In this document: positions 7,117 through 62,654 of the stretch, in pieces
Layout of the letters: every line of letters begins with the position of its first letter
Numbering within the stretch: the first letter of the stretch is position 1
Origin: Laspinema olomoucense D3b
GTDB taxonomy: Bacteria; Cyanobacteriota; Cyanobacteriia; Cyanobacteriales; Laspinemataceae
Assembly: GCF_025370785.1 (NCBI RefSeq)
Contig: NZ_JAMXFA010000008.1
Location: 62,001 to 126,000, forward strand
Direction of reading: 5' to 3'
DNA: 64,000 nucleotides
The notes under the pieces: model-generated
Seen by the model: only the letters and a program-made list of their open reading frames with translations
Database searches by the model: none
Told to the model about the DNA's origin: nothing
Position numbers and translations under genes: made by a program

Positions 7117-8113
7117 TGTTTTGCTTCTCCTCAAATAACCATAAATGTCCGTAACCGATGCAGTGGCGCTTATACTGATCCGGCAAGGGCGCGGATGTTT
7201 CTAACGGCGCTTGTCCCTCCCACAGGTAAACGGCACCGGCGGGAGTCATCCATTCCCCAGGGGTCAGGGAGGCAGTGGGACGGTTTTTGACCTTTTTCCA
7301 AGACTGCCAAGGAATCCCGACTTCGGCGGCATACCCTTTAATCGCAACATTGTCCGGGTAAGGAATCGAGAGACAATCCCCCGACTGCACCCATAGGGCC
7401 CCGGTCAATAACACCGCCCCAGTTCCTTGGAAACTCTCGGATTTTCCGTCTAACCAAGGGGCGTTAATTTTCTGGGGTTTGATGCTAACCGGGGTGCCCC
7501 CGGCCCCCAGAAAACTCCAAGGCGCTTCCGGGAGTCGTTCCTGTAGGTCATAGTTACCGATAATTTTCACCAAAATCGACCAACCCGGGTCCATTAAGGT
7601 GGTCTTTTCCGCAAAAAACCCGCCTTCCTCTTTTACTTGGAAGTCTTGGCGACTGTTGTGACTGAGGGTGAGTTTTTGCCAAGGCAACTCGCACAAGGAG
7701 GGGTTCTGTGCTGGATTGCTTAACTTTCCTACTTTCCAGAGTTGCTTGAGACTCTCTCCGAGAATCAGATAACGACCCCCGATGATTTCAATGGAGGCAT
7801 TTTCATGTTGGGGTTGCCTTTGCCAGCGATCGCCGGACCAAACCATCCGAAATATCTCCGATGGCATCTGCTGGGGTGACTCTAACCGATAGACGGGCAA
7901 AGGCAAGGTGACATAAACCTTTCCGCCCGCAAACCAAAAGGGCCCCCAAAGGGTGCAATCCGTGGGCAAGTTCAAACAGGCGGCCAATTGATGACCATTA
8001 GGGGGCCACCGGCAGTCTACTTGACCGCTATTTTGTCCGACTGGGGTCAAGTTGCCGATCGCCACGGTTCCTGCTGGGGAAATAGAATACCAAGATTCCG
8101 CTAATTCACTCAT
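7106..8113 (-). CDS. cmr3: Cmr3 RAMP subunit of type III-B complex
   Basis: 335 aa. A conserved Cmr3-like block is GYAAEVGIPWQSWKKVKNRP (about residues 269-288), and the N-terminus has a WYSISPAGTVAIG strand as in two-ferredoxin-fold Cmr3 proteins. GRYLILGE and a Gly-rich FLGAGGTP lie between. Cmr3 pairs with Cas10/Cmr2 at the foot of the complex and holds the crRNA 5' tag. The start overlaps the cmr2 stop by 4 nt (ATGA at 8110-8113), so the two are translationally coupled. Confidence 0.88.
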   Translation of the reverse strand: MSELAESWYSISPAGTVAIGNLTPVGQNSGQVDCRWPPNGHQLAACLNLPTDCTLWGPFWFAGGKVYVTLPLPVYRLESPQQMPSEIFRMVWSGDRWQRQPQHENASIEIIGGRYLILGESLKQLWKVGKLSNPAQNPSLCELPWQKLTLSHNSRQDFQVKEEGGFFAEKTTLMDPGWSILVKIIGNYDLQERLPEAPWSFLGAGGTPVSIKPQKINAPWLDGKSESFQGTGAVLLTGALWVQSGDCLSIPYPDNVAIKGYAAEVGIPWQSWKKVKNRPTASLTPGEWMTPAGAVYLWEGQAPLETSAPLPDQYKRHCIGYGHLWLFEEKQNNGN

Positions 8114-10374
8114 CGGTTAGTCCCCCCAACTCGTTCGACCCATTTTTCCCGTTCCCGTTGTTGTCGCGCCAGAAATCCCATGATGCTAATCCACCCAATC
8201 CACCAAGACCAATTTTCCAGTTCTTCTCGATAATCATTTCCTGCGATATGGCGAATCATTTCCCAAGTCAACTCAATGCCGACACTCGCCCAGAGGGTTT
8301 GGATTAAATCCTGGACGGTGCGAAGAGAAGATTGCTGTAATCGAGTGCTTTCCATGTATGACAACAGCTTTTCCCAGCGATTTAAGTCGGTTTTTCCCTG
8401 ATGCTGGAGGGGAACTTGAATCAATAATTCCCACAACCGCCAAGGACAAACCCAGTCTAAGGATTGACCACTATTGAAAATCACTTTCACACAGACGCGA
8501 TCGCGCCCTTGATTTTTCGCTTGTTTATAGGCATCATTTAACCCGCGATGCCATAAGGACTGAGGAATCCGCCGTTGGGCAATTACCACCCCCAAGCTAA
8601 AATTCATCCGCTGTCCCGGCACCGGATAAATCTCCTCTGTTCCTGTTCGTTTTACCCACCCATCTACCGCCGAATTTAAGGGTTGAGTCAGGGGAGAAAC
8701 TTCCCCCCGCCAGAGACGATATAAATCCGTCGTCAGGGACACCGCTTCAGTCAGGGGTCCCAACAACAGAAAATCATCCCCCCCGGCAAAAATCACTTTG
8801 CCGTTGTGATGTTGTTCGGTTAAGGGATACAGCAGTTGATTCCAGCATCCAAATAACAAAGACAAGTCCAGAATATGGGGCAAATCCAGTTGCCGAGTCG
8901 CATTGGCGGGGATTGTCGGCGGGTCGATACCCAACTGGGCGATCGCCTCTGGAGTGGGATGCCACCGGGACCAAGGCAACTTTAAGGTTTTATACTGGTC
9001 CCCAGAGAGCCATTTGCCCATATTGTCCCCATCGCCACGCCATCCCACGGTCCATTCAATCGCACTTTCCCACCCTTTAACCTGCTGTTCCCACTCCTGG
9101 AGTTGGGATTCTTGTTCCTTCTTCTGGGTGAGGTTTGTGGGGTCTTCAGGAGAGAGAAAATCTTTCAGATACCGTCGTTCTAGGATTCGGGGTTCGGCAA
9201 AATTGGGTGAGTTTGGGCGATCAACTTTGGGCATTCCCCATTCATAACTGGGGTCACGATTGAGATAATATTCATGCCAAAATGCCACATTTGCATTCCA
9301 CAAGTCAGCATCGATGGTATCAACCACCCAAGCGGCAGCAACCGTCGCGCGATCGGGGAATTTACCCCAAGGGCAAGCGGGGGGAGTTTTGTTCCATAAT
9401 CGTTCTAAAGTGGGTTGGATAATATCTGGAATGGACGCTAACCGGCGCACGAATTCGATACTATTGAGGCGATCGTCACTATCTATCAATCCTGAGAGGC
9501 GGTGACGACTTTCAGTAGAGGCCCGGGCCCACCATTCCGCTATTTGAGTATCGGGCAATCCCCAAGTTCCCCCTTGATGCACGGGTTTCAGACCCGGATG
9601 CCAGATGGACAAATATCCAGCGCTAGGGCTCGTCCGACCACCCCACCAAGTCCCCTGCCAATTGCGTCCTATTTTACGCGATTCGATGCGTTGATGCAAT
9701 TCTTTAATATCATCATTTACCGTCTCTGGGACGCGGGGTGTACTTTCGGCATAAACGGACCACAAATAGCGATTATCTCGATGAATTACTTGCCATCCGG
9801 GACCATTGAGTAAACGCGGACTATAATTCTGGGAAACTTCTTCTTCTAATTCATATAAAAATCGGCTCCATTCTTCGGTGATAATGGTTTGAAAGTTCTC
9901 CAACCAGGTGGCATCTCCGGGATGTAACCCAGTAATCACATTCGGGAGTTCTGCCTGCCAAAAGCGATCGCCTTCAAAGGGTTCACCGCGCAACCAATTC
10001 AGCAACGGACAAGACTGATGCAAGGGTAGCAAGACTCGACCCTCACGTTCTTCCCACCGATAAATTGCCACACCGGTGAGATAATGGCATAACCAAGACG
10101 CAACCGCCCAATCGCGCAATCGTTCGCCACCCCCGAGAAAGTCTTGAACGGGTCCAAAGGAGAGGACGCCGAGGTGAGTTAAGTTAGGACTAGCTGCTGC
10201 TGCAACTTGCTCACAAGCTTCGCGAGATGCACCGCCTCCCCACCAAAATTGCGATCGCATCACGGTGGAGGGTTGCCATTCTCCACTCACCGGATGTATA
10301 GAAATTTCCGGGGAAGCATCAGGCAAATTTTGATAAAGTTCCCGTTGTCGAATCAGCCAATCTTCGATATTCAT
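8110..10374 (-). CDS. cmr2: Cmr2/Cas10 cyclic-oligoadenylate synthase, no HD domain visible
   Basis: 754 aa. The palm-domain motif FAGGDDFLLLGP gives Gly-Gly-Asp-Asp at about residues 530-534, the active site that makes cyclic oligoadenylates when target RNA binds. The Cmr2 N-domain signature GPVQDFLGGGERLRDWAVAS is at about residue 75. Only ~70 residues precede it and contain no His-Asp pair, so the HD nuclease domain found in many Cas10 proteins is absent. That leaves second-messenger signalling as the only enzymatic output here. The neighbour directly upstream is a CARF-HEPN RNase, the matching receptor. The start abuts the csx1 stop with no gap. Confidence 0.93.
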   Translation of the reverse strand: MNIEDWLIRQRELYQNLPDASPEISIHPVSGEWQPSTVMRSQFWWGGGASREACEQVAAAASPNLTHLGVLSFGPVQDFLGGGERLRDWAVASWLCHYLTGVAIYRWEEREGRVLLPLHQSCPLLNWLRGEPFEGDRFWQAELPNVITGLHPGDATWLENFQTIITEEWSRFLYELEEEVSQNYSPRLLNGPGWQVIHRDNRYLWSVYAESTPRVPETVNDDIKELHQRIESRKIGRNWQGTWWGGRTSPSAGYLSIWHPGLKPVHQGGTWGLPDTQIAEWWARASTESRHRLSGLIDSDDRLNSIEFVRRLASIPDIIQPTLERLWNKTPPACPWGKFPDRATVAAAWVVDTIDADLWNANVAFWHEYYLNRDPSYEWGMPKVDRPNSPNFAEPRILERRYLKDFLSPEDPTNLTQKKEQESQLQEWEQQVKGWESAIEWTVGWRGDGDNMGKWLSGDQYKTLKLPWSRWHPTPEAIAQLGIDPPTIPANATRQLDLPHILDLSLLFGCWNQLLYPLTEQHHNGKVIFAGGDDFLLLGPLTEAVSLTTDLYRLWRGEVSPLTQPLNSAVDGWVKRTGTEEIYPVPGQRMNFSLGVVIAQRRIPQSLWHRGLNDAYKQAKNQGRDRVCVKVIFNSGQSLDWVCPWRLWELLIQVPLQHQGKTDLNRWEKLLSYMESTRLQQSSLRTVQDLIQTLWASVGIELTWEMIRHIAGNDYREELENWSWWIGWISIMGFLARQQREREKWVERVGGTNR

Positions 10375-38515: not shown

Positions 38516-39625
38516 TTAGTTGGAAGATTCAGGTTGCTTATCAGGCAAAAAACATTTATCGGAATCGCAACCGGCAGGTCCAGCTTCGGCTAAGTCACCA
38601 AGGTCATAGCGGTGAAGTGCCTTCTTAAAATCATGGGTTTTGCGACGAACTAAGACCTCGGCACTGAGACGGTCATATTCGGCTTTATCAATGGGTTCAA
38701 AGGGAAGACGAGGAAAGGATTGACGGTCATCAAAACGAGCAAGTAAGGCAGCCGAAACATAACCTTCATCATTTTGAATGGCTTCATAAATTCTTGTACC
38801 TAATTGCTCAATCTCGGATTCACGAAATTCAATAGTGGCGGAGGTATTATGGCAGGCATAGTTGCCTTGGACATTAAGGTAGAAGTCCATTTGAGCCAAA
38901 GCGGAAAATAGACTGATGTCAATGGCATCGGCACCAGGTAAATCAGCCCAACTGACGGCGATGGGAATTTCCACCAACCATTCAGAACAACGCGGGTCAA
39001 ATGGGTCAGTTAGAAGATTACCCTTTTCATCTTTATCAGATTGGGAAGGGATGACATTGTAACCATAGTCGATACAAGCCAGTGCAACTGGGTCATTTTT
39101 CCCGAAAGTTATTCGTCGAATAAACCGCTGGGCTTTGGGTGGATGCCATCCTGGTGAAGCACCTGTTAACAGACTTTTGGTCCCTGCAGGTTGCACTGTA
39201 GTACACCGATTTGGACGACGTAATCCGTGGCGATCGCAATAATCCCAGACTTGAGTATGAACAATGTCCCGCCACCGATTCAGATAATCTGCTTCTTTCT
39301 GTTTGAAGTAATCAGATAAATAATATTGAGTTGTTTTTCCGGTGATTCCCCACTGGGCTGGTCGTCCTGCCTCCCACCACTTTAACCAATCTATTCCAAA
39401 AGCATTGACGAAGAAATCAAATAATCCGGTAAAGGAGACACCAACAATGGGGTCAATTTCGCGACTGTATTGATAACGAGGTTCATCGAATTTGTGATGG
39501 AGTAAAACTGCTACTGCTAAAGCCCCGGCCTTAAATGCTTTTTCTTGTTCCTCCCAATTATTCGGGTCTATTTGATTGAGATGGACCTCTGAAAGATTAC
39601 AGTGAAATCCTGCACCAATAATTTC
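38516..39625 (-). CDS. nrdJ: Adenosylcobalamin-dependent ribonucleotide reductase, exon 2
   Basis: 369 codons that complete the reductase begun at 41111. It opens EIIGAGFHCNLSEVHLNQ, which in unbroken homologues directly follows NPCG; that Cys is at the end of exon 1. RCTTVQPAGTKSLLTGASPG is the conserved substrate-binding block near residue 145 of this part. The C-terminal pair CDSDKC (near 360) fits the redox-active cysteines that reload the enzyme. The frame alone would have to start at TTG 39628 with no ribosome site, so splicing is the sensible reading. The product is a class II (B12-dependent, oxygen-insensitive) enzyme making deoxynucleotides, frequent in phages and cyanobacteria. Confidence 0.9.
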   Translation of the reverse strand, partial: EIIGAGFHCNLSEVHLNQIDPNNWEEQEKAFKAGALAVAVLLHHKFDEPRYQYSREIDPIVGVSFTGLFDFFVNAFGIDWLKWWEAGRPAQWGITGKTTQYYLSDYFKQKEADYLNRWRDIVHTQVWDYCDRHGLRRPNRCTTVQPAGTKSLLTGASPGWHPPKAQRFIRRITFGKNDPVALACIDYGYNVIPSQSDKDEKGNLLTDPFDPRCSEWLVEIPIAVSWADLPGADAIDISLFSALAQMDFYLNVQGNYACHNTSATIEFRESEIEQLGTRIYEAIQNDEGYVSAALLARFDDRQSFPRLPFEPIDKAEYDRLSAEVLVRRKTHDFKKALHRYDLGDLAEAGPAGCDSDKCFLPDKQPESSN

Positions 39626-39869
39626 CAATTATGTTATCCTAAAGGCTTTTTATCCTCTAGTTCTTATCCTTTAATTCGGATAAGTTCGGCGTACATTTTC
39701 AATTGAAATTAACTGTCGGACACTCATGGAATGATTATATTCTCAAATAATGAGTTTCACATCCTACGCTCTACGGTGGCAGATGCTTTTAAACAATCTG
39801 CTTACCTCGATATTCCCATCTCAGGGTTCACCGATTTTGCCCGATTTTTAACGTGAGGCAAAATTACTT
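39626..39869 (-). ncRNA. Putative group I intron in nrdJ, 244 nt
   Basis: It interrupts the reductase between the Gly and Glu codons of NPCG|EIIG with the reading frame kept on both sides. Exon 1 ends in U (GGU) and the intron ends in G (ATAATTG), the group I rule. A guide sequence GCCTCACG, 11 nt into the intron, pairs with the exon end CGTGTGGT with a U-G wobble at the splice site (P1). It has no ORF. The rest contains several candidate pairings (for example GAACCCTGAGATGGG), but I did not fold the core. Group I introns in bacterial, including cyanobacterial, ribonucleotide reductase genes have been described. Confidence 0.75.
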
Positions 39870-41111
39870 ACCACACGGGTTTAGGCCGTAACGCTGCAAC
39901 CGATGTTTCAACTCTTGTTGAGACATGGATGGATGGCGAGCGCTTATCCATTGCAATGCGTGACCCTGATTATATGCTTTTAGAAACTCTAGTTTAGTTT
40001 CTTTGTCTGGCATTAAATCACAACTAGCTCGGGCAACGGCTTCACCAGCCCATTGAATTGCTCCTTCTCCAGAATAGTATTGTTGACGTACTGCATCAAT
40101 ACATTCAGTCAGAGTTGGTTTATGATGAAATACTCTTGAGTGATTTGCCATTCTGAGTGCATCTCTTGAAGGGTCAATTCGCCAATTACCTGCCTCATCT
40201 TGTTGCCATAAATTCATTTTGGCATTGGCAAACAATTCATCAAAACTGGCTCCTTGTCTGATTCCCGCACTTCTTCTCACATTTCCGGCAACTATTGTAG
40301 AAGCCGCTTCATCAATAAGTAAAGAGCATTCAACCGAATTTAATTGTCGTCCATGCGCCTTATTTAGAATTGAAGCAATTCGTTGATAAAGTTCCGTCAA
40401 CTTAATAGGATTAGCTATTCCTCCAAACCCATTAAGTCGTTCTCCTGCCGGTCGAATATCTGCTAAATTAACTAACACCTCAATAGGTGAATTAAACCGT
40501 AAATCAGAAGATAATTCGATTAGAGTTTGGTAAGAATGCACCCAACCTTCTCGTGAGTCTCCTACATTAATAATTACCCGATTGCCTTCTACAATTACTT
40601 GAGTATGTTCTCGACGTTGAGATGGATGAGTTTCTCCAATTTCACCAATTATACTTACTTCCAGTCGGTTCCGAATTGGCGGCAACTGATTGATATATTG
40701 CGGTTCGAGGACCGCGCCGGTTCCACATCCCATCATGGCAAGGTTCATTAATAATCCAAAAGACCGCCAATCAGTGATATTCGTTGAGGTACAGTTATAG
40801 CCTCCTGAATAGTTTTCCGGGCGTTCCATCCAGTCAGTTCCGCCCACCCACAACCATCTGCCCGAAGATAGGGTTTTGAGTTGTTTCTGCATCTGGGTGA
40901 GGAGTGCCACCTCGTCTGAGTTTAGATTGCCGAGTTTCTCTAATCCTGCAATGGTGCGTTCGCATACTTCCTCCCATGTTTCCCGCCCTTCTTTCTTTCT
41001 TCTGCTGTATGTTCTGAAAAATACTGAATTTGCACAAGGTGCTGTTTCTGGAAATGTTTCTGGTTTTCTTTCTGTTTCTGTTATTGAATTTGAGTTGTGT
41101 ATTGAGACCAT
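39870..41111 (-). CDS. nrdJ: Adenosylcobalamin-dependent ribonucleotide reductase, exon 1
   Basis: 414 codons up to GLNPCG. Conserved features of monomeric class II reductases are FRTYSRRKKEGRETWEEV near the N-terminus, SGRWLWVGGTDW (about 80), YNCTSTNI with the first active-site Cys (about 106), and NPCG with the radical-carrying Cys at the exon end. Without splicing, translation would continue one codon (Lys) into the intron and stop at TAA. Spliced, the protein is 783 aa, the usual length for the family. The first ~25 residues are low-complexity (SNSITETERKPETFPETAP). Confidence 0.9.
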
Positions 41112-45821: not shown

Positions 45822-46027
45822 TTAGAGCAATTGGAGCAAAGATTGTAAACGAAGCAGAACGGCGATCGCCTGTGGGATACAGATAGATTTGCTATAGAGT
45901 TTTATGGCATCGCGTCGTCCGGGGGTTCGGGGTTCAACTCCAACATCAATTGGCGGGGGGTTCGTTGCCCACCAGCCGGATAGATGCAATCCGTGTACCC
46001 AATCGGGAAACCCATTAAATTCGGCAT
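45822..46027 (-). pseudogene. Displaced C-terminal fragment of a Dcm-type methyltransferase
   Basis: The - strand frame ending at TAA 45822 encodes GLHLSGWWATNPPPIDVGV, RTPGRRDAIKLYSKSICIPQ and AIAVLLRLQSLLQLL. These align with the last 65 residues of the intact methyltransferase (GLSYSGWWKHNSPPVNIGL, RTPGRRAAINLVGQSIAIPQ, AVCVLLRLKFLCSLLD). It has no 5' part: homology stops abruptly near 46027. The +1 frame of the same bases encodes MGFPIGYTDCIYPAGG, matching the second ORF embedded in the intact gene. Confidence 0.8.
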
Positions 46028-46115: not shown

Positions 46116-46625
46116 ATGCCTCGCCTCAAGCTATCTCTCCAACAACGCATTGAAAGCCACATTGTTTCTAAAGACGACTGCTGGTTAACAGATTTATGCT
46201 GCTGTCGCTATGGCTATCCCAGAATCCGTGTTAATGGCAAAACTGAAAAGGCTTCTCGCGTAATGTTTAGGCTAAACTACGGTGAAATTCCCTCGCACCT
46301 TTACGTTTGCCACAAATGTGATAACCGAGCTTGTGTCAATCCAGAGCATTTGTTTCTTGGCACTCAAAAAGAAAACATGACTGACATGGCAAACAAAGGG
46401 CGCTCAACCATAGGTTCTAGGAATCCAAGAGCGAAACTTAGTGAAGACGATGTTGTCGAAATTAAATGCTTACTATCTGAAGGTAAGCTAAACTGTCAAG
46501 AAATTTCAAACTTGTATGGTGTTGATAGAAAAGTAATTTCAGGAATTAAAAATGGAAAAATTTGGAAGCACGTTGCCTATTCGGAGTTCATTACAACTAA
46601 TCTAACAAAGAACAAAGAAACTTAA
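46116..46625 (+). CDS. HNH endonuclease, free-standing homing type
   Basis: 169 aa. The HNH_3 core is YVCHKCDNRACVNPEHLFLG (about 68-87), followed by KENMTDMANKGR, a signature of homing HNH enzymes. A C-terminal helix-turn-helix (CQEISNLYGVDRKVISGIKN, about 129-148) would give DNA specificity. It lies on the opposite strand between the intact dcm gene, whose 3' end it overlaps by 29 bp, and the displaced dcm fragment at 45822-46027. This suggests that it moved into an older dcm gene. Confidence 0.88.
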   Translation: MPRLKLSLQQRIESHIVSKDDCWLTDLCCCRYGYPRIRVNGKTEKASRVMFRLNYGEIPSHLYVCHKCDNRACVNPEHLFLGTQKENMTDMANKGRSTIGSRNPRAKLSEDDVVEIKCLLSEGKLNCQEISNLYGVDRKVISGIKNGKIWKHVAYSEFITTNLTKNKET

Positions 46626-47490
46626 GGCGCAGTAAAACACAAACAGCTTGAGGTATAGCTATAGATTGTCCAACCAAGTTTATAGCTGCCCTCCTTCCTG
46701 GTGTTCTGAGGGGAAGTCCAATATTAACTGGTGGTGAGTTGTGTTTCCACCAGCCGGAATAAGACAATCCAGCCAAGTAGGGGAAAATCCTTGCATCCAT
46801 AGGCAAAACTGTGGATTCAGTTTGCGGGAGCGCTCCAATCTCCCTTGTTTTTTCAATATCACTTCCAATTTGTTCATCCCAGCCGGTCCACCCTTTCCTT
46901 TGCTGGATGGCAAGCCGGTCGGCGTAGGCAAGAATAAAGAGTCTGAGTCTTCGGTGGGGAGCACCAAACTCCTGCGCCGAGAACATTTCAACTTCTGTTT
47001 GATATCCTGCCATTCTGAGAGAGGCAAGAACTTCTCTAAGTCCTCTGTGGACAAGGCCCTCGGGATTCTCAATGATGACGAAATCTGGTTGGGCCTCACG
47101 GATGACTCTGAGCATTGAGTACCAGAGTCCTGATTCATCACCAGCCAGTCCTTCTCTTGAACCGGCGCAGCTTGTGTTCGTGCAAGGAAATCCTCCAATA
47201 ATGACTGAGGCGTAATCTTGGACTGATTCTCCACCTGATTCTTCACCTGATTCTCCACCTGATTCTCCACCTCCTGAGCTTGGCGATCGCATGATTGGGG
47301 GATGATATGTTCTAATATCTCCGTGGATGGGGATGCCTGGGAACTGGGACTGGAGGACTTTTTGGGCTGTGGGTTCAATTTCGACAAATTGGATTGTTCG
47401 ATAATTTGGTCCGAAAACAAATTCAGTTGCCGCATATTCAAATGCTCCTATTCCACTAAATAAACTGATAGCTTTTACTTGATTTTCCAT
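46597..47490 (-). CDS. dcm: C5-cytosine DNA methyltransferase
   Basis: 297 aa with the ordered motifs: I, ISLFSGIGAFE (about 8-18); IV, GGFPCTNTS with the catalytic Cys (about 103); VI, VIIENPEGL (here E-N-P rather than E-N-V); VIII, EFGAPHRRLRLFILA (about 176-190); X, INLVGQSIAIPQ near 271. A Gly/Glu/Ser repeat (GGGESGGESGEESGGES, about 73-89) sits between motifs II and IV. AGGGAAAA precedes the ATG. The target site is unknown. Its last ~65 residues duplicate the relic at 45822, and a long second frame runs inside it (see 46680). Confidence 0.9.
   Translation of the reverse strand: MENQVKAISLFSGIGAFEYAATEFVFGPNYRTIQFVEIEPTAQKVLQSQFPGIPIHGDIRTYHPPIMRSPSSGGGESGGESGEESGGESVQDYASVIIGGFPCTNTSCAGSREGLAGDESGLWYSMLRVIREAQPDFVIIENPEGLVHRGLREVLASLRMAGYQTEVEMFSAQEFGAPHRRLRLFILAYADRLAIQQRKGWTGWDEQIGSDIEKTREIGALPQTESTVLPMDARIFPYLAGLSYSGWWKHNSPPVNIGLPLRTPGRRAAINLVGQSIAIPQAVCVLLRLKFLCSLLD
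46680..47441 (-). CDS. Second long ORF inside dcm, +1 frame, probably a real overlapping gene
   Basis: 253 aa nested wholly within the methyltransferase. The C-terminal third has LFLPTPTGLPSSKGKGGPAG and KLNPQFCLWMQGFSPTWLD. These match the L-P-T-P-T-A / L-N-P-x-F-V-E-W-M-M-G-F-P-x-G-W-T pattern seen in phage proteins linked to cytosine methylases. The same motif (MGFPIGYTDCIYPAGG) is kept in the +1 frame of the diverged fragment at 45822-46027, which argues for selection on both frames. The N-terminal part is low-complexity (QVENQVKNQVENQ), mirroring the Glu/Ser repeat of Dcm. Start and expression are unproven. Confidence 0.55.
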   Translation of the reverse strand: MNMRQLNLFSDQIIEQSNLSKLNPQPKKSSSPSSQASPSTEILEHIIPQSCDRQAQEVENQVENQVKNQVENQSKITPQSLLEDFLARTQAAPVQEKDWLVMNQDSGTQCSESSVRPNQISSSLRIPRALSTEDLEKFLPLSEWQDIKQKLKCSRRRSLVLPTEDSDSLFLPTPTGLPSSKGKGGPAGMNKLEVILKKQGRLERSRKLNPQFCLWMQGFSPTWLDCLIPAGGNTTHHQLILDFPSEHQEGGQL

Positions 47491-50874: not shown

Positions 50875-52356
50875 TTAAAACAGACTTAATTGTTCATAAT
50901 CATCACCTTTGACTTTCTGTTTCTTATGGATTTTTGATTCACTAGACTCAACGGCAAATATTGAACTATCAAACAAATTTAGTTGAGTTGGATTGGCTGC
51001 TGTTCTGCCCTTAACTATTTGGGTTTCAACTGGGTTAAGTTTAGTTGGGTTGATGTTTATCAACTCACCAAAGCCATAACCATAACCATCTAGCTTGTGA
51101 ATAGCTTTGCAATATTTATGATTGACATCAATTTGCTTACCATGAGTTAAGGATTTGATTGCAAATGAACCTGTAGACCTAACTGTAACCCGTGCCGTAT
51201 ATTTACCAGCATATTTACCCTTGGGAATATCTGCCTTAACAATATCTCCGGTAGTAAATCCAAAGTGGACTTTTTGTCTGGAACAATGACGAGTTGGAAA
51301 CCCATATTTGTCAGTTCTACACATTTGCCTAGAACCAAACCCAAAACTTTTAATCAGTAATGGTTGATGAGTTGCGATAACTAAATTATCAATTTCGCCA
51401 ACACTTGCTGCATCTAACCAATGAGTCTTGGGTAATCCTAATCTACAACGATTGTATTTTGTTAATGCTCCATTCCCTGTAAATACTGGAAGCCCAGTCA
51501 ATTCTAAACTTTCCTTTAATTTCCAACGAGTAGAATTAACAGCCGCAGCATCTTTCAGTGGTTGTTTAGCTTGATTCAATATTCGTTTTAGCAAACTAGG
51601 TTTACCACTAAGGAAGTCTTGGATATCTTGATTTCCTTTGGACTGATTACAAGGTCTACAAGCTAAAGTCAGATTAGATATTCGATTGCTGCCACCCTTA
51701 GATTTTGGTTGGATATGTTCAACTTCTAATGGGACATTTTTAGCCTGACAGTAGACACAAGTTCTATCAAACTTCTCAAGCAAATACTCTCTAACTTCAT
51801 ATCCAGTTAATTCCCCTTGTTGATACTGAACCCCACTGACATCAGGGTTCGTCATCTTTTGAGTATCAAACCTAACTAATTCCATCATAACTGAATCAAC
51901 AGCCGAGAATTTAATTAGTTTGTTAACCCAAGTAGATACATTCTCTACTCTGTGCATTAGACTTGGAGCCAACCAACCTTTAGGTTTTGATTTGACTCTA
52001 TTAAGGAACCGAGGTTGACGATAACGAGTTTTACGATTACGTCGATTTCTTCTTAGACTACGACGATTATCTAAAGATTGCTTGATTAATTGACCCCGAT
52101 GCTGAAGTTCAGCCGCCCAAATGACTACACCATTTTGAACTAAAGCCAATCCAGTCGTTTTACTACCCGGGTCTATTTTAATCTGAGACTTTAGGATATC
52201 GCCTTCAACTTCTTTTTTCAAGATAATTGTGAATGTATATCTCCTGAAAACTGCTGCTTTACCTGCTTTAAGTAATGACCTGGCTACTCCAGGTTTACAA
52301 GGAGATAAAGGGTGTTTGTTGGTATCTACAACTAAAACGTAATTGGTTTTGGACAT
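50875..52356 (-). CDS. iscB: IscB RNA-guided nuclease
   Basis: 493 aa, the usual IscB size. Domain order: PLMP (VLVVDTNKHPLSPCKPG, residues 7-23); RuvC-I IDPGSKTTGLAL with Asp62; Arg-rich bridge helix (RRSLRRNRRNRKTRYRQPRF, 98-117); RuvC-II VDSVMMELVRF with Glu159; HNH TCVYCQAKNVPLEVEHIQPK with Cys200, Cys203 and His214, and CRPCNQ (Cys233, Cys236); RuvC-III KTHWLDAASVG with His312 and Asp315. All catalytic residues are present. IscB is the ancestor-type relative of Cas9 and uses an omega-RNA from its own 5' leader. AAGGAGGGA lies 7 nt before the ATG. No IS200/IS605 TnpA is nearby, so any movement would need a helper. Confidence 0.96.
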   Translation of the reverse strand: MSKTNYVLVVDTNKHPLSPCKPGVARSLLKAGKAAVFRRYTFTIILKKEVEGDILKSQIKIDPGSKTTGLALVQNGVVIWAAELQHRGQLIKQSLDNRRSLRRNRRNRKTRYRQPRFLNRVKSKPKGWLAPSLMHRVENVSTWVNKLIKFSAVDSVMMELVRFDTQKMTNPDVSGVQYQQGELTGYEVREYLLEKFDRTCVYCQAKNVPLEVEHIQPKSKGGSNRISNLTLACRPCNQSKGNQDIQDFLSGKPSLLKRILNQAKQPLKDAAAVNSTRWKLKESLELTGLPVFTGNGALTKYNRCRLGLPKTHWLDAASVGEIDNLVIATHQPLLIKSFGFGSRQMCRTDKYGFPTRHCSRQKVHFGFTTGDIVKADIPKGKYAGKYTARVTVRSTGSFAIKSLTHGKQIDVNHKYCKAIHKLDGYGYGFGELININPTKLNPVETQIVKGRTAANPTQLNLFDSSIFAVESSESKIHKKQKVKGDDYEQLSLF

Positions 52357-52622
52357 TGTTGCGTCCCTCCTTTATTCAGTAATGTTTGCATCGACAATGT
52401 TATTACCCGGTAACTATCCGAACAGCACTTTCAATACCCAAATAGAATATTTAACTGTTCAGTTCTAGTGCTACAGACTTGCAAGCATCCGTAGGTAGGT
52501 CTTTAACTCTTAGTAATAACGTAGTTCTTCACTTAGTCTGGTCAACTCAAGACTTGCAATACTGATTACAAGCCCACACTATATTTTAATTAGTGTTGGG
52601 TCGTTGACAAATTTTTACCAAG
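52357..52622 (-). ncRNA. Putative omega-RNA leader of iscB
   Basis: About 265 nt of gene-free, structured sequence directly upstream of iscB on the same strand, where IscB omega-RNAs are encoded. Visible pairings include TTGCAAGTCTTGAG/CTTGCAAGTCTG direct elements and complementary TTACCGGGTAA. The guide would be the 5' end, near 52600-52622, next to the terminator of the upstream gene. Exact ends and fold need covariance modelling. Confidence 0.65.
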
Positions 52623-58680: not shown

Positions 58681-60051
58681 ATGGCAGAAGCGTTTGAATA
58701 TTTAAGAGAGAGAATTAAAGACAGTTTTTGGTTAGGCAAAGAAATCCTGACTATCACAGAGGATATTAACAACGTCTTAAATACTCCTCAAGAATGGTTT
58801 AGGAATCTGCCATTGGTTCAATTTGTTGAATCAATGGGTGAACCAGTATTTGAACCTATTAAAAAAGTCATTGAGATAGCAAAAGAAGCCCGAGATATCA
58901 TTACCGCAGCAGTTTTGTTAACCCTAGAGTCGATTTACGGAGTTAATTTAGCTTTTAATAGTAAAACCCATGAAGATTTAGCACAAGTGGGAAATACTAT
59001 GTTAAACAATAATAGTTTCGGAACAACAGAATATAATCTCTATATCAGAGCAATCGATGCCCATAATGTGAATTTAAAATTACCAGAATTATCTCAAAAA
59101 TTAGCGGAGATTGAAGAATTAGTAGATTCAATTCCGGAAATGGCAGAAGATGCACAAAATGTCATGCGGCAAAAAGAAGGAGATGCTTATGCGTTCCTTC
59201 ATCAAACTAAAAACGAAATGGAAGCCCTATTAGAAACAGCAGAAGGTGCAGCCCGAACCCAAGCCAGAAGAATATTAAATCAAGTCATAAAATTATTGGA
59301 AAAATTTGCTGAACCCATTGAAGAAGAACCAGAAAAAGGAGCAATAATTTTAGCTCCAGTAGCCGCAGTAGCAGTACCCACTGTAGTAACAATCACAACT
59401 CTAGTTACTCAAATTGCTAATTTCTTCCTAACTGGGATTCTGTTGAAATCGATGGCTACGTCAGTAGCCACAGCTTTAGCTCAAGTATCAGCTAGTGTTG
59501 TTCTTAAATATTTCTCCGCAACCGGCGCTAATGGTTTACGATTTCTCGCTGCTGATGCTTTAAGAAATAATGTTCATCTTCTCCCCAAAATCTGGAGATA
59601 TACCGCTATGCAAGGATTCGCCTGGGGATTCTTAATGGCTTATGCTCCTTTCATTGTCTTATCCTCTATTATCATCATTGCAGCAATTCGCTTATCTCAA
59701 GATGAACAAGGATTTGCTGAACATTTTTATGTGTTCGCCGACAATGATAATGCACCCGCCTTTGCTTATTCCAATATCTTAAATCCTAATCAGATTCGTG
59801 ATGAATTGCATAAGATTAAAAATGATTTAGTCCAAATTAATGATAACGCAGTTCAATATCAAACCATTATGGGATTAGGTATCGATTTCGTAGAAGGAGC
59901 CAATGGTAAAGAACCAAAAGTCGTAGAATCTTATGATTTATCAGGACCTTCCCCTGTAAAAATTCCTAACTCAGTAGCTCAAGAATTTTATGACCAATTC
60001 AGTGCCAAACATAATATCGGCACTCCCTCTGGTCAATGGAAACCTGTTTAA
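58681..60051 (+). CDS. Membrane protein, possibly phage structural or secretion-related
   Basis: 456 aa. The first ~210 residues are helical, with coiled-coil-like stretches (ELSQKLAEIEELVDSIPEMA). Hydrophobic helices follow at about 222-240 (ILAPVAAVAVPTVVTITTLV), 245-275 and 315-335 (FLMAYAPFIVLSSIIIIAAI). The last ~110 residues are soluble. No enzyme motif. It starts a + strand transcript divergent from the gene at 58459 and is followed closely by the 855-aa fusion gene. Confidence 0.6.
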   Translation: MAEAFEYLRERIKDSFWLGKEILTITEDINNVLNTPQEWFRNLPLVQFVESMGEPVFEPIKKVIEIAKEARDIITAAVLLTLESIYGVNLAFNSKTHEDLAQVGNTMLNNNSFGTTEYNLYIRAIDAHNVNLKLPELSQKLAEIEELVDSIPEMAEDAQNVMRQKEGDAYAFLHQTKNEMEALLETAEGAARTQARRILNQVIKLLEKFAEPIEEEPEKGAIILAPVAAVAVPTVVTITTLVTQIANFFLTGILLKSMATSVATALAQVSASVVLKYFSATGANGLRFLAADALRNNVHLLPKIWRYTAMQGFAWGFLMAYAPFIVLSSIIIIAAIRLSQDEQGFAEHFYVFADNDNAPAFAYSNILNPNQIRDELHKIKNDLVQINDNAVQYQTIMGLGIDFVEGANGKEPKVVESYDLSGPSPVKIPNSVAQEFYDQFSAKHNIGTPSGQWKPV

Positions 60052-60086
60052 TACACCAGTCTAATCAAATTAAATGGAACTCAGTC

Positions 60087-62654
60087 ATGCCAATTATAAT
60101 TAAACCAGGATTTGCTTCATCTGTACGAACTCAAATTCTATCAGCAGTAGATACAGTAATAGAAAAAGCTCCATTATATCAAGCAGCAGTAGGTGATAGA
60201 GGCGGTAAAATGCGCTATTCTATGACCAATTGCGGAACATTTGGCTGGTGGTCAACTCAAGGATATACGAAAATTAATCCAATGACCAATCAACGATGGC
60301 CGGATATTCCACCGGCAATTTTAAATCTGATTCAACCTATTGGAGAAAAAGTATATCCGGGGTTTCAACTCCAAACTGTGGCAATCGATGTTTTTGATAT
60401 GGATATGAATCGGCCAGATAAACCGATTCTGAATTTCCATCAAGATACAAGTGAACGTAATAAACAAGCTCCCATTATTTCAATATCCTTTGGTAGTGGT
60501 ACTTTCATTGTTGCTGGTCAAGTTGATGGTCAAGGTCGTATTCCTGCCGCTCAACTTCGTCGCATCAACCGAACCATGACTACTACTTATGAACTAAAAG
60601 ATGCTGATTTAGTTGTTTTATATGGTGATGAACGTTTATGTTTCTATGGAGCCGGTAAAGTCTCTGAATCATCAGAATTAGGGAATAAACGTATCAGTAT
60701 CACAGGAAGGATGGTAGACCCATTAAATCAAGAAGATAAACCTATTATTTTCTCATTTGTGGGAAATCAATCGATTGAAACTTTAACTCCTCCAATCATT
60801 GAAAAAATGGAGGACGCAATGACCTTTAGAAAAACATTAAATCCTCAACCGAAAAATCCATCTGAAATTTTAGTAGGTTCTTTACCTGGATTTGATAGAC
60901 CTACTATTACTTATCTCAGAAGTAAAAAATATCCCAGTGTATTTATTTACAATATGGGGAATGAAAATGTACCACAAACATATCCAGTACGCAATGTGGG
61001 AAATGAACCAGCCCCATTAATGGAAATGTTGGAAGAAGCAGATTATCTATTATTGGCAACTAATGGCACAGAAAAAAGAACTCAATACGCCAAAAATTAC
61101 TTTGAAACATTAAATAAACCAATTTGGGAAGTTTTGGTGGAGGATGAAAGAACAGATGAAGGGGAACCGGAAAATATTCCAGATGTTCCAGAGGAAGAAC
61201 CACCATCCACACTATCGCCAAATAGGAGAGCAAATTCAATAGGTCATTGTCGAGTAACCAATATTAGAGATACCGGCTCTTTTGGTTTTTCTTCAACTAA
61301 TTGGCATACTCCAGACTATTCCCGGGTTTATATTGGTCGAGGTGGTAGTCAAGGTATTGCCCGTAGTCCTATGAATAATCCCTATCCAATTGGTAAAGAA
61401 GGAACCCGCGAAGATGTTTTAGACAAATTCCGTAAATATTCCTGGCCTCTAATTCGAGATGAATTGGCTCCTTTTTATCCAGCTATATATAATGTAGCTT
61501 CTTTATTAGCTCAAGGAAAACCTGTAGAATTAGTTTGTCACTGTGACCCATTACCTTGTCATGGACACATAATTCACAAAGCTGCTTTGTGGATGATTGA
61601 AAATAATCGTGTCCCTTATGAACCTGATGCTCCAGTTGAAAGTGATACTCGGCTTCATCTGGGCATGGCTGGGCTAAGTAATCTTATTGGAAACTTGACT
61701 CCCAGAATGGAATTGGAGATTGAAACATTATTAAAGAATAAACATCGAAAATGGTATCTTAAACTGAATGATGTTCCTACTCGAAATCCTGTGGTTCATA
61801 TCCGAGATAATCCAGGATTTGATAGATTTGTTCAACAATATTTGATTAGTCAAAAATATCAAGATGTAGTAGTTCATGGACAATTACCTTCTAATTTACC
61901 CACTGACTTAAATTGGACTACTTCCTCTGAACCTTTAACTTCTAACTTGAACTATCTCTTTGTTCAATGGGATGCTGAGGATACCGAACTTCAGCAATTA
62001 ATGCAACAATTTAATCAACTAAATAAAACATTGATTGCTTATGTCAGAAAACCAAAAATAAATTTACCTGACCCAATTCCTAAATTAGATGACCCCCAAC
62101 GATTTGCTAAATATGGTGCCGCTGTTCCAAATGGTTCTTATGTTGCAGTAATTGGGTCAAGAAAATTTCGCTCGGCTGCCTGGGCAAAAGGTGCTATCAC
62201 TCAATTTATTAATGCTTTACCTGGTGATTGTAAAATTGTCAGTGGTGGAGCTAAAGGGGCTGATTCTTATGCTGAAGATGCAGCCATTGCCCGTGGATTA
62301 CCTATTATCGTTCATCCAGCTAATTGGGTTCAAACTCCTAAACGTGATGCTACTGGACAAATTGACCCTAATTGGAGACCTAAATTAATTCCTTCTGACC
62401 GACGAATAGAAGATTCAAATGAACGAAGCAATGCCGGTACAGAACGGAATAAGGTGATTGTTGATGATTGTAATTGTCTTTATGCTTTCATCGTTAGGGG
62501 TGGTTCCAGTGGTAGTGAAGATGCAACTCAATATGCCGCTCTTAAAGATAAACACAACTTGGAAATGGTATTTGAAGAAGGAGCCGAAGAAGTTGAGAGA
62601 GTTAACTCAAGACGCAGTACCATGAATCTCTTCTTCTTTGAAGAAGGTGTTTAA
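60087..62654 (+). CDS. AlkB-like / DUF4326 / SLOG (DprA-like) fusion protein
   Basis: 855 aa from the ATG at 60087; an earlier frame start at 60036 overlaps the previous gene. Residues 1-215 resemble AlkB 2OG-Fe(II) dioxygenases: FHQDTSERN gives His118 and Asp120, then ISISFGSGTF and an Arg-containing end KRISITGRM. Residues about 230-370 are an unassigned alpha/beta unit. About 380-520 are DUF4326-like: SRVYIGRGG...ARSPMNNPYPIG and ELVCHCDPLPCHGHII. The C-terminal ~165 residues are a SLOG/DprA-type Rossmann fold: YVAVIGSRKF, KIVSGGAKGADSYAEDAA and ERNKVIVDDCNCLYAFI. Such domains bind nucleotides or NAD-derived ligands. Confidence 0.82.
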   Translation: MPIIIKPGFASSVRTQILSAVDTVIEKAPLYQAAVGDRGGKMRYSMTNCGTFGWWSTQGYTKINPMTNQRWPDIPPAILNLIQPIGEKVYPGFQLQTVAIDVFDMDMNRPDKPILNFHQDTSERNKQAPIISISFGSGTFIVAGQVDGQGRIPAAQLRRINRTMTTTYELKDADLVVLYGDERLCFYGAGKVSESSELGNKRISITGRMVDPLNQEDKPIIFSFVGNQSIETLTPPIIEKMEDAMTFRKTLNPQPKNPSEILVGSLPGFDRPTITYLRSKKYPSVFIYNMGNENVPQTYPVRNVGNEPAPLMEMLEEADYLLLATNGTEKRTQYAKNYFETLNKPIWEVLVEDERTDEGEPENIPDVPEEEPPSTLSPNRRANSIGHCRVTNIRDTGSFGFSSTNWHTPDYSRVYIGRGGSQGIARSPMNNPYPIGKEGTREDVLDKFRKYSWPLIRDELAPFYPAIYNVASLLAQGKPVELVCHCDPLPCHGHIIHKAALWMIENNRVPYEPDAPVESDTRLHLGMAGLSNLIGNLTPRMELEIETLLKNKHRKWYLKLNDVPTRNPVVHIRDNPGFDRFVQQYLISQKYQDVVVHGQLPSNLPTDLNWTTSSEPLTSNLNYLFVQWDAEDTELQQLMQQFNQLNKTLIAYVRKPKINLPDPIPKLDDPQRFAKYGAAVPNGSYVAVIGSRKFRSAAWAKGAITQFINALPGDCKIVSGGAKGADSYAEDAAIARGLPIIVHPANWVQTPKRDATGQIDPNWRPKLIPSDRRIEDSNERSNAGTERNKVIVDDCNCLYAFIVRGGSSGSEDATQYAALKDKHNLEMVFEEGAEEVERVNSRRSTMNLFFFEEGV

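Follow-up and report, generated by a model that had tools for sequence, protein, structure and literature searches.

An overlapping +1 frame in a dcm gene of Laspinema olomoucense as the probable second subunit of a cytosine-5 methyltransferase

The methyltransferase M.EcoHK31I, which belongs to the system acting at YGGCCR, has a small chain that is read from another frame within the gene of its large chain. In the part of PMC3404938 drawn on here, the larger chain of this enzyme is described as carrying motifs I-VIII and X and the smaller chain as carrying motif IX only, while M.AquI is given as a cytosine-5 methyltransferase (C5-MTase) of two chains. In M.AquI motifs IX and X are both on the small chain. 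A C5-MTase made of two polypeptides with overlapping reading frames is therefore already known from one bacterial enzyme, M.EcoHK31I. A further case of a second protein in a methylase gene is ShiLan, where the relevant part of PMC11855218 describes an HNH endonuclease hidden in another frame of a phage methylase gene. Among open-licence papers, neither a family-wide overlap nor the cyanobacterial form in which one chain lies inside a long frame for the other was found described.

A dcm gene with a long open +1 frame

The window, by which we mean the whole stretch of 64,000 nucleotides that was analysed, contains a dcm gene whose product, alpha, matches PF00145 over residues 6-196 and belongs to phrog_363, named DNA methyltransferase in PHROGs. 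Alpha has the motifs I-VIII and the Pro-Cys of a C5-MTase, as seen from the PF00145 match, the sequence GGFPCTNTS and a Foldseek match to M.HhaI. The earlier note had reported that the +1 frame over dcm is open for 253 codons, and this was confirmed (Table 1): when alpha was shuffled synonymously, keeping both the protein and the codon usage, only 11 of 10,000 sequences had a +1 frame as long, the mean being 99 codons, and frame +2 of alpha was unremarkable in the same test. The L-N-P-x-F...W-M-x-G-F...W motif that had been noticed in this frame is likewise present, as LNPQFCLWMQGFSPTWLD. Searching with the 253-aa chain gave a mixed outcome, with phrog_1008, also named DNA methyltransferase, found in PHROGs (best stretch residues 70-181), nothing above the cut-off in Pfam and no match in NCBIfam or PADLOC.

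Table 1. Features of the dcm locus, with positions in the window
Feature	Positions	Strand	Remarks
Alpha (dcm), C5-cytosine methyltransferase, 297 aa	46597-47490	minus	Motifs I-VIII and X; PF00145, E 3e-31
+1-frame ORF, 253 codons, stop-free	46680-47441	minus	Upper bound of beta; phrog_1008, E 1.4e-9
Beta, likeliest translated form (predicted), GTG start, 192 aa	46680-47258	minus	Shine-Dalgarno sequence AGGAGGTG 9 nt upstream; family-wide stop depletion from near motif IV
Shine-Dalgarno-like AGGAGGTG ahead of GTG 47258	47268-47275	minus	
Beta motif IX, LNPQFCLWMQGFSPTWLD	46767-46820	minus	Motif IX HMM 22.9 bits; third-base freezing; counterpart in L048
Alpha motif IV, GGFPCTNTS, presumed catalytic Cys	47170-47196	minus	
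Alpha motif VIII, GAPHRRLRLFILAYA	46921-46965	minus	
Alpha motif X, AINLVGQSIAIPQA	46645-46686	minus	Almost wholly past the end of beta
12-bp tandem repeats, length neutral in both frames	47216-47275	minus	On the minus strand repeat Shine-Dalgarno-like sequence and in-frame GTGs (47258, 47246 and 47234)
HNH endonuclease ORF, convergent with dcm and lying between its 3' end and the remnant	46116-46625	plus	PF13392, E 3.2e-12; phrog_1872, E 7.9e-30
Remnant of another dcm 3' end, diverged, with traces of both frames	45825-46018	minus	

The fragment beyond the HNH ORF had been put forward, at 45822-46027, as a diverged copy in which both frames are conserved. The fragment exists and has both frames, though each can be read for a few dozen codons only and the argument built on it is weak. 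Its alpha-like frame (about 45825-46001) is identical to the C-terminus of window alpha at 35 of 61 aligned residues and its +1-like frame (about 45926-46018) to beta at 13 of 29. The remnant adds little to the case for dual coding because its +1 identity, 11/30 against 6.4 expected from the alpha frame (p 0.01), only modestly exceeds what the alpha frame forces, and it speaks weakly for it also because no start can be recognised in it and it resembles a relic. The HNH endonuclease may have driven a replacement of the dcm 3' end: by alignment score the window 3' end is nearer to five of seven relatives and the remnant to two (L029 and L030), while by percent identity the remnant is nearer to four of the seven, the aligned spans differing.

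Several other features were seen in the window. A ribonucleotide reductase at 38516-41111 lies in two ORFs about 235 nt apart, matching positions 21-389 and 390-699 of phrog_367, and Rfam gave no match there at the gathering threshold. An RRXRR+HNH protein, which we take to be IscB-like, and a HEARO RNA directly upstream of it are found at 50875-52356 and 52379-52608. RAMP and Cas10/Cmr2 proteins at 1001-2518 and 8110-10374 mark a type III CRISPR region, and an 872-aa protein at 60036-62654 combines a 2OG-Fe(II) oxygenase, DUF4326 and a YAcAr/SLOG domain.

Openness, extent and constraint of the second frame

A search with the +1 protein gave a match in 14 of 99 genomes, among them that of the window. 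At ten of the loci brought in (L012-L020 and L023) the match lay within a +1 ORF of 354-946 codons overlapping a diverged Dcm, the Dcm being assigned by eye in L016 and L017 and running off the contig in L017. As these loci had been picked by the +1 protein itself, a second set was gathered through Dcm, from the best 80 of 368 confirmed genome loci and the best 80 of 546 confirmed viral loci. With mycobacteriophage Spikelee, which a search by the +1 protein had added, this made 161 loci with a G+C of 0.30 to 0.71; L056 was too short for the openness test, and 159 of the 160 loci tested were found through Dcm, with a query alignment that itself included Dcms from loci which the +1 protein had first brought up. 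In this set, taken from the best genome and viral matches, most homologues do not have a broken +1 frame: its open fraction has a median of 0.78 against 0.35 in synonymous shuffles, with 148 of 160 loci at p<=0.05 and 127 at p<=0.01. Frame +2 has no excess (0.20 against 0.20 in shuffles, three of 160 loci significant). Because many of the loci are related to one another, the count was also made after thinning to less than 60% alpha identity, which left 79/86 loci at p<=0.05 for frame +1 and 2/86 for frame +2. The +1 motif itself was found by regular expression in 101 of 160 loci, where 0.84 would be expected from shuffles. Identity of the +1 frame between loci was above expectation in all 303 pairs (Z at least 0.3), but we do not lean on this since frame +2 was raised as well (median Z 2.3-4.8). 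G003, the nearest relative, has an alpha of 100% identity and two changes in the +1 frame, silent in alpha and both upstream of GTG 47258; these fit a later start and say nothing for constraint upstream of that codon. In L011 the +1 stops are located just past the motif, at the C-terminal end.

To see where the second gene begins and ends, stops in the +1 frame were counted by segment in the 44 of 153 loci for which strict patterns recognised every anchor, the +1 motif among them. The stops seen and expected were 75/64.5 before IV-30, 29/31.2 from IV-30 to IV-10, 13/34.3 from IV-10 to IV+20, 1/94.8 from IV+20 to motif VIII, 0/61.0 from VIII to IX, 0/8.9 within IX (here partly by the selection of the loci), 9/21.6 from IX to X and 81/56.3 from X to the end. 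From IV+20 through motif IX this amounts to one stop against about 165 expected, and the ratios for frame +2 stay at 0.98-1.29 over the segments. The second gene therefore starts near motif IV and ends between motifs IX and X. Ahead of a +1 ATG or GTG near motif IV, 30 of 137 loci have a Shine-Dalgarno match of at least 6, where 6.7 would be expected and none of 200 shuffle sets gave more than 13; a match of at least 7 is found in 14 loci against 1.3. The best start site in the window is GTG 47258 behind AGGAGGTG, which by itself is not significant in the shuffle test (p 0.12). Window beta thus probably begins at this GTG and is 192 aa long, so that of the 253-aa chain claimed before, the ORF is real while the first 61 residues need not be translated.

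The offset between the frames is such that the third base of an alpha codon is the second base of a beta codon. Across motif IX the four-fold third bases of alpha, which are synonymous for alpha, are nearly fixed in 100 loci (observed against expected T 0.89/0.26, T 0.82/0.16, A 0.86/0.41, G 0.82/0.27 and G 0.88/0.25, at those motif positions that had not been used for selecting the loci), and the motif is therefore not explained by constraint on Dcm. This fixation is near background a few codons on, at the conserved motif X of alpha. When divergence at alpha-synonymous and beta-synonymous third bases was compared, motif IV gave 0.13/0.82 (136 of 153 loci), motif VIII 0.42/1.00 (74 of 153), motif IX 1.03/0.32 (100 of 153) and motif X 0.16/1.11 (104 of 153). 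This check of dual-frame selection at the codon level, which the earlier note had proposed, finds the alpha frame constrained at IV, VIII and X and the beta frame at IX: the two frames take turns in constraint and switch to beta at motif IX. From the codon pattern, the alpha residues across motif IX look like a by-product forced by the beta motif. Dual coding of alpha and the +1 frame, as had been suggested for the window, is supported family-wide by the openness in relatives and by this frame-specific constraint, and judging from the sequences, the arrangement is present in most of the related genes among those examined.

The +1 motif is, by sequence comparison, motif IX of the C5-MTases, the tie to M.HhaI running through L048 and being weak in score. 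In L048, an alphaproteobacterial relative of one chain, the Dcm frame carries LNPDWVEWLMGFPIGW immediately ahead of LGNAVVP; phmmer sets LNPDWVEWLMGFPIGW opposite RKLHPRECARVMGYPDSY...GNSVV of M.HhaI in a segment of only 3 bits that is colinear with a first segment of 78 bits. In L048 (5004-5984) frame +2 of the same DNA reads MADGFSYRLDRR, which resembles the usual alpha sequence, hinting at a past frame change.

A motif IX HMM, built from the +1 motif of 96 loci and used at a threshold of 8 bits, gave a match in the +1 frame at 138 of 161 loci (42/65 of those it was not trained on), in the alpha frame at five and in frame +2 at none, and at no locus did both the +1 and the alpha frame match; the regular expression, at 101/160, is thus an undercount. 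At 8 bits 83 of 1610 shuffles match by full score and 76 by best domain (about 5%), and at 20 bits the HMM matches 122 of 161 loci (26/65 untrained) against two of 1610 shuffles. Window alpha gives no match down to 2 bits, while window beta scores 22.9. Six of the 23 loci without a +1 match are cut by a contig end, leaving 17 that can be assessed. The motif is found in the alpha frame by HMM in L048, L065, L080, L095 and L104, in the last four at 9.1-12.8 bits and each time just before motif X, and by eye in L096 and L103, making seven of the 17 clearly one-chain; in L035, L037, L049, L056, L073, L086, L106, L107, L119 and L132 motif IX could be clearly placed in neither frame.

Six of the eight other Dcms of the Laspinema genome were examined. 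Five carry motif IX in frame, by pattern in L004-L006 and by eye in L008 and L009, and none of these five shows a +1 excess at p<=0.05 (lowest 0.07). The sixth, L007, has a +1 ORF of 249 codons (89 expected; 0/300 shuffles) with NLTWTEWERLMGFPPGW. L007 (G000:C14 around 7960-8250; alpha 1279-2199, +1 ORF 1421-2167) is a second alpha/beta pair, on another branch of the Dcms.

The AF2 model of alpha has a pLDDT of 80.5 and M.HhaI as its top Foldseek match (E 5.2e-14), with pLDDT below 50 at residues 221-249 and 251-254, where motif IX of beta is encoded. Beta modelled alone is mostly unsure (pLDDT 57.5), the better parts being helices around 50-72, 131-158 and 190-215, the last of which includes the start of motif IX. 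The beta model matched no fold in the PDB (best E 8.1), and a beta profile gave no convincing match among PDB sequences (best E 0.86). A lone beta that is poorly folded in the model would fit a chain that folds on alpha.

A predicted inside-out form in cyanobacteria

Fourteen loci with long +1 ORFs (355-883 codons) were picked from the Dcm-chosen set, excluding L037, L039 and L012-L023. In 13 of them the beta ORF is already open ahead of the alpha match, in 12 the entire stop-to-stop frame of alpha lies inside the beta ORF, and in all 14 the beta ORF extends 70-438 codons beyond the alpha stop. These long betas are predicted ORFs, and those of L031 and L032 have no ATG until late in the frame. 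The short form is that of the window, L025-L030 and L105. An internal Shine-Dalgarno sequence is strong in some of the long-beta alphas (AAGGAGG in L034) and absent in others. The tails of L031, L033, L034, L036 and L038 are 38-85% identical, piecewise, and the C-termini of these ORFs share a conserved KGCLYKYLENKKLKDG... part. Pfam gave three weak matches on eight long-beta ORFs, all under the cut-off (best E 0.0014), and no match on six of the tails; the long-beta ORFs may have ASCH-like, ParB-like and arm-type DNA-binding looks.

We lean towards a more general view, in which most phage-type C5-MTase genes would be obligate two-protein genes, made of a catalytic chain and a +1 partner with motif IX whose frames alternate in their functional residues. 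In cyanobacteria the arrangement would be turned inside out, with alpha wholly within a beta ORF of some 380-950 codons, and the conserved C-terminal extras could act as a tether between the methylase and its target, or between it and some other function.

A probable two-polypeptide enzyme and its alternatives

In the window and most of the relatives examined both frames are open, conserved and separately constrained, and motif IX is on beta and absent from alpha. Because this division of motifs is the same as in M.EcoHK31I, we read the pair as alpha and beta of one enzyme, and give a probability of about 84% to the locus encoding both subunits of a two-polypeptide C5-MTase of that type, with I-VIII and X on alpha and IX on beta. 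The large domain, with AdoMet binding and the catalytic Cys, would come from alpha. Beta, whose start would be within alpha and close to motif IV, would supply motif IX and the stretch preceding it, a region placed in the small, target-recognising domain of one-chain enzymes, and would so complete that domain. One mRNA read in two frames would give both chains, with beta as a predicted product, and the two would assemble into one active enzyme; the complex, the need for it in activity and its target site are what we infer. Alpha by itself would be inactive or weak.

Motif IX lies in the +1 frame past motif VIII, and in the one-chain relative L048 it is in frame, as would be expected if a ribosome starting in alpha slipped by +1 after motif VIII and made one fused chain with motif IX. 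Such a programmed frameshift is improbable, however, because slippage past VIII would put no demand on the +1 frame ahead of VIII, and between IV+20 and VIII a single stop is seen where 94.8 are expected. Start signals within alpha are also in excess around motif IV, 13 of the 14 long-beta loci have a beta ORF that is open before the alpha match is reached, and a fused chain would lose motif X. It would seem a little less probable still that beta is a real overlapping protein acting as a DNA-binding or regulatory partner and not as a subunit of the methyltransferase. The conserved extra C-terminal parts of the long betas, which have no convincing Pfam match, and the lone beta without a fold match would agree with such a partner, but the +1 motif is IX-like, and alpha lacks it in every one of the 138 loci whose +1 frame carries it, while it is found in alpha in seven of the 17 assessable loci without a +1 match and in five other Dcms of the same genome. 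That the open frame and its motif are merely forced by the Dcm protein and its codon usage we reject as barely credible: near motifs IV and VIII the +1 protein is indeed largely dictated by alpha, but shuffles that preserve alpha reproduce neither the openness nor the motif, and alpha-synonymous bases are nearly fixed where the motif lies.

Annotation usually keeps one frame, and such methylases would therefore be listed as one-chain enzymes without motif IX; their alphas, expressed alone, may look dead. If the two-subunit reading is right, a second protein is missing from the annotation of many Dcm-like genes of phages and bacteria, which together make up a very broad collection of long overlaps on the same strand and bring a built-in test with them, namely that constraint switches frame at a named catalytic motif. 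Such a large natural collection would also lend itself to work on the sharing of one sequence by overlapping genes.

Traces of the overlap are present in phage annotation. In a phage collection 147 records match viral beta, and 15 of 30 listed at even steps have two annotated features under the match. Paenibacillus phages Diva (gp50) and Shelly (gp56) have an annotated 'internal gene' of dcm at +1 offset, and Catdawg (gp5/6) and Llama (gp74/75) have overlapping 'DNA methylase' pairs at the same offset, though the alphas of the latter two, unlike that of the window, are shortened. The annotation rows seen for these four phages give no role for the second frame. In L186 (489-1440, Catdawg) and L185 (708-1467, Llama) after the shortened alpha comes a beta that overlaps it and continues beyond its end, and the alpha/beta overlap is also seen in L191 (804-1595), on an archaeal plasmid of Methanomethylovorans, where dcm alone is listed.

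Compared with the described systems, as far as the parts of the sources drawn on here go, the locus resembles ShiLan in having a second protein from another frame of a methylase gene, but there it is a homing HNH insertion and here a conserved frame of the methylase itself. With M.AquI it has in common a C5-MTase split over two chains, and differs in that motif X is on alpha and only motif IX on beta. The closest likeness is to M.EcoHK31I, where, as in the window, alpha lacks motif IX and has I-VIII and X, beta has IX, and the frame for beta overlaps alpha in another frame. This likeness is by description only, and unlike M.EcoHK31I the window gene adjoins an HNH ORF, no restriction enzyme being recognised among the neighbours scanned, and in other cyanobacteria alpha lies within a much longer beta ORF.
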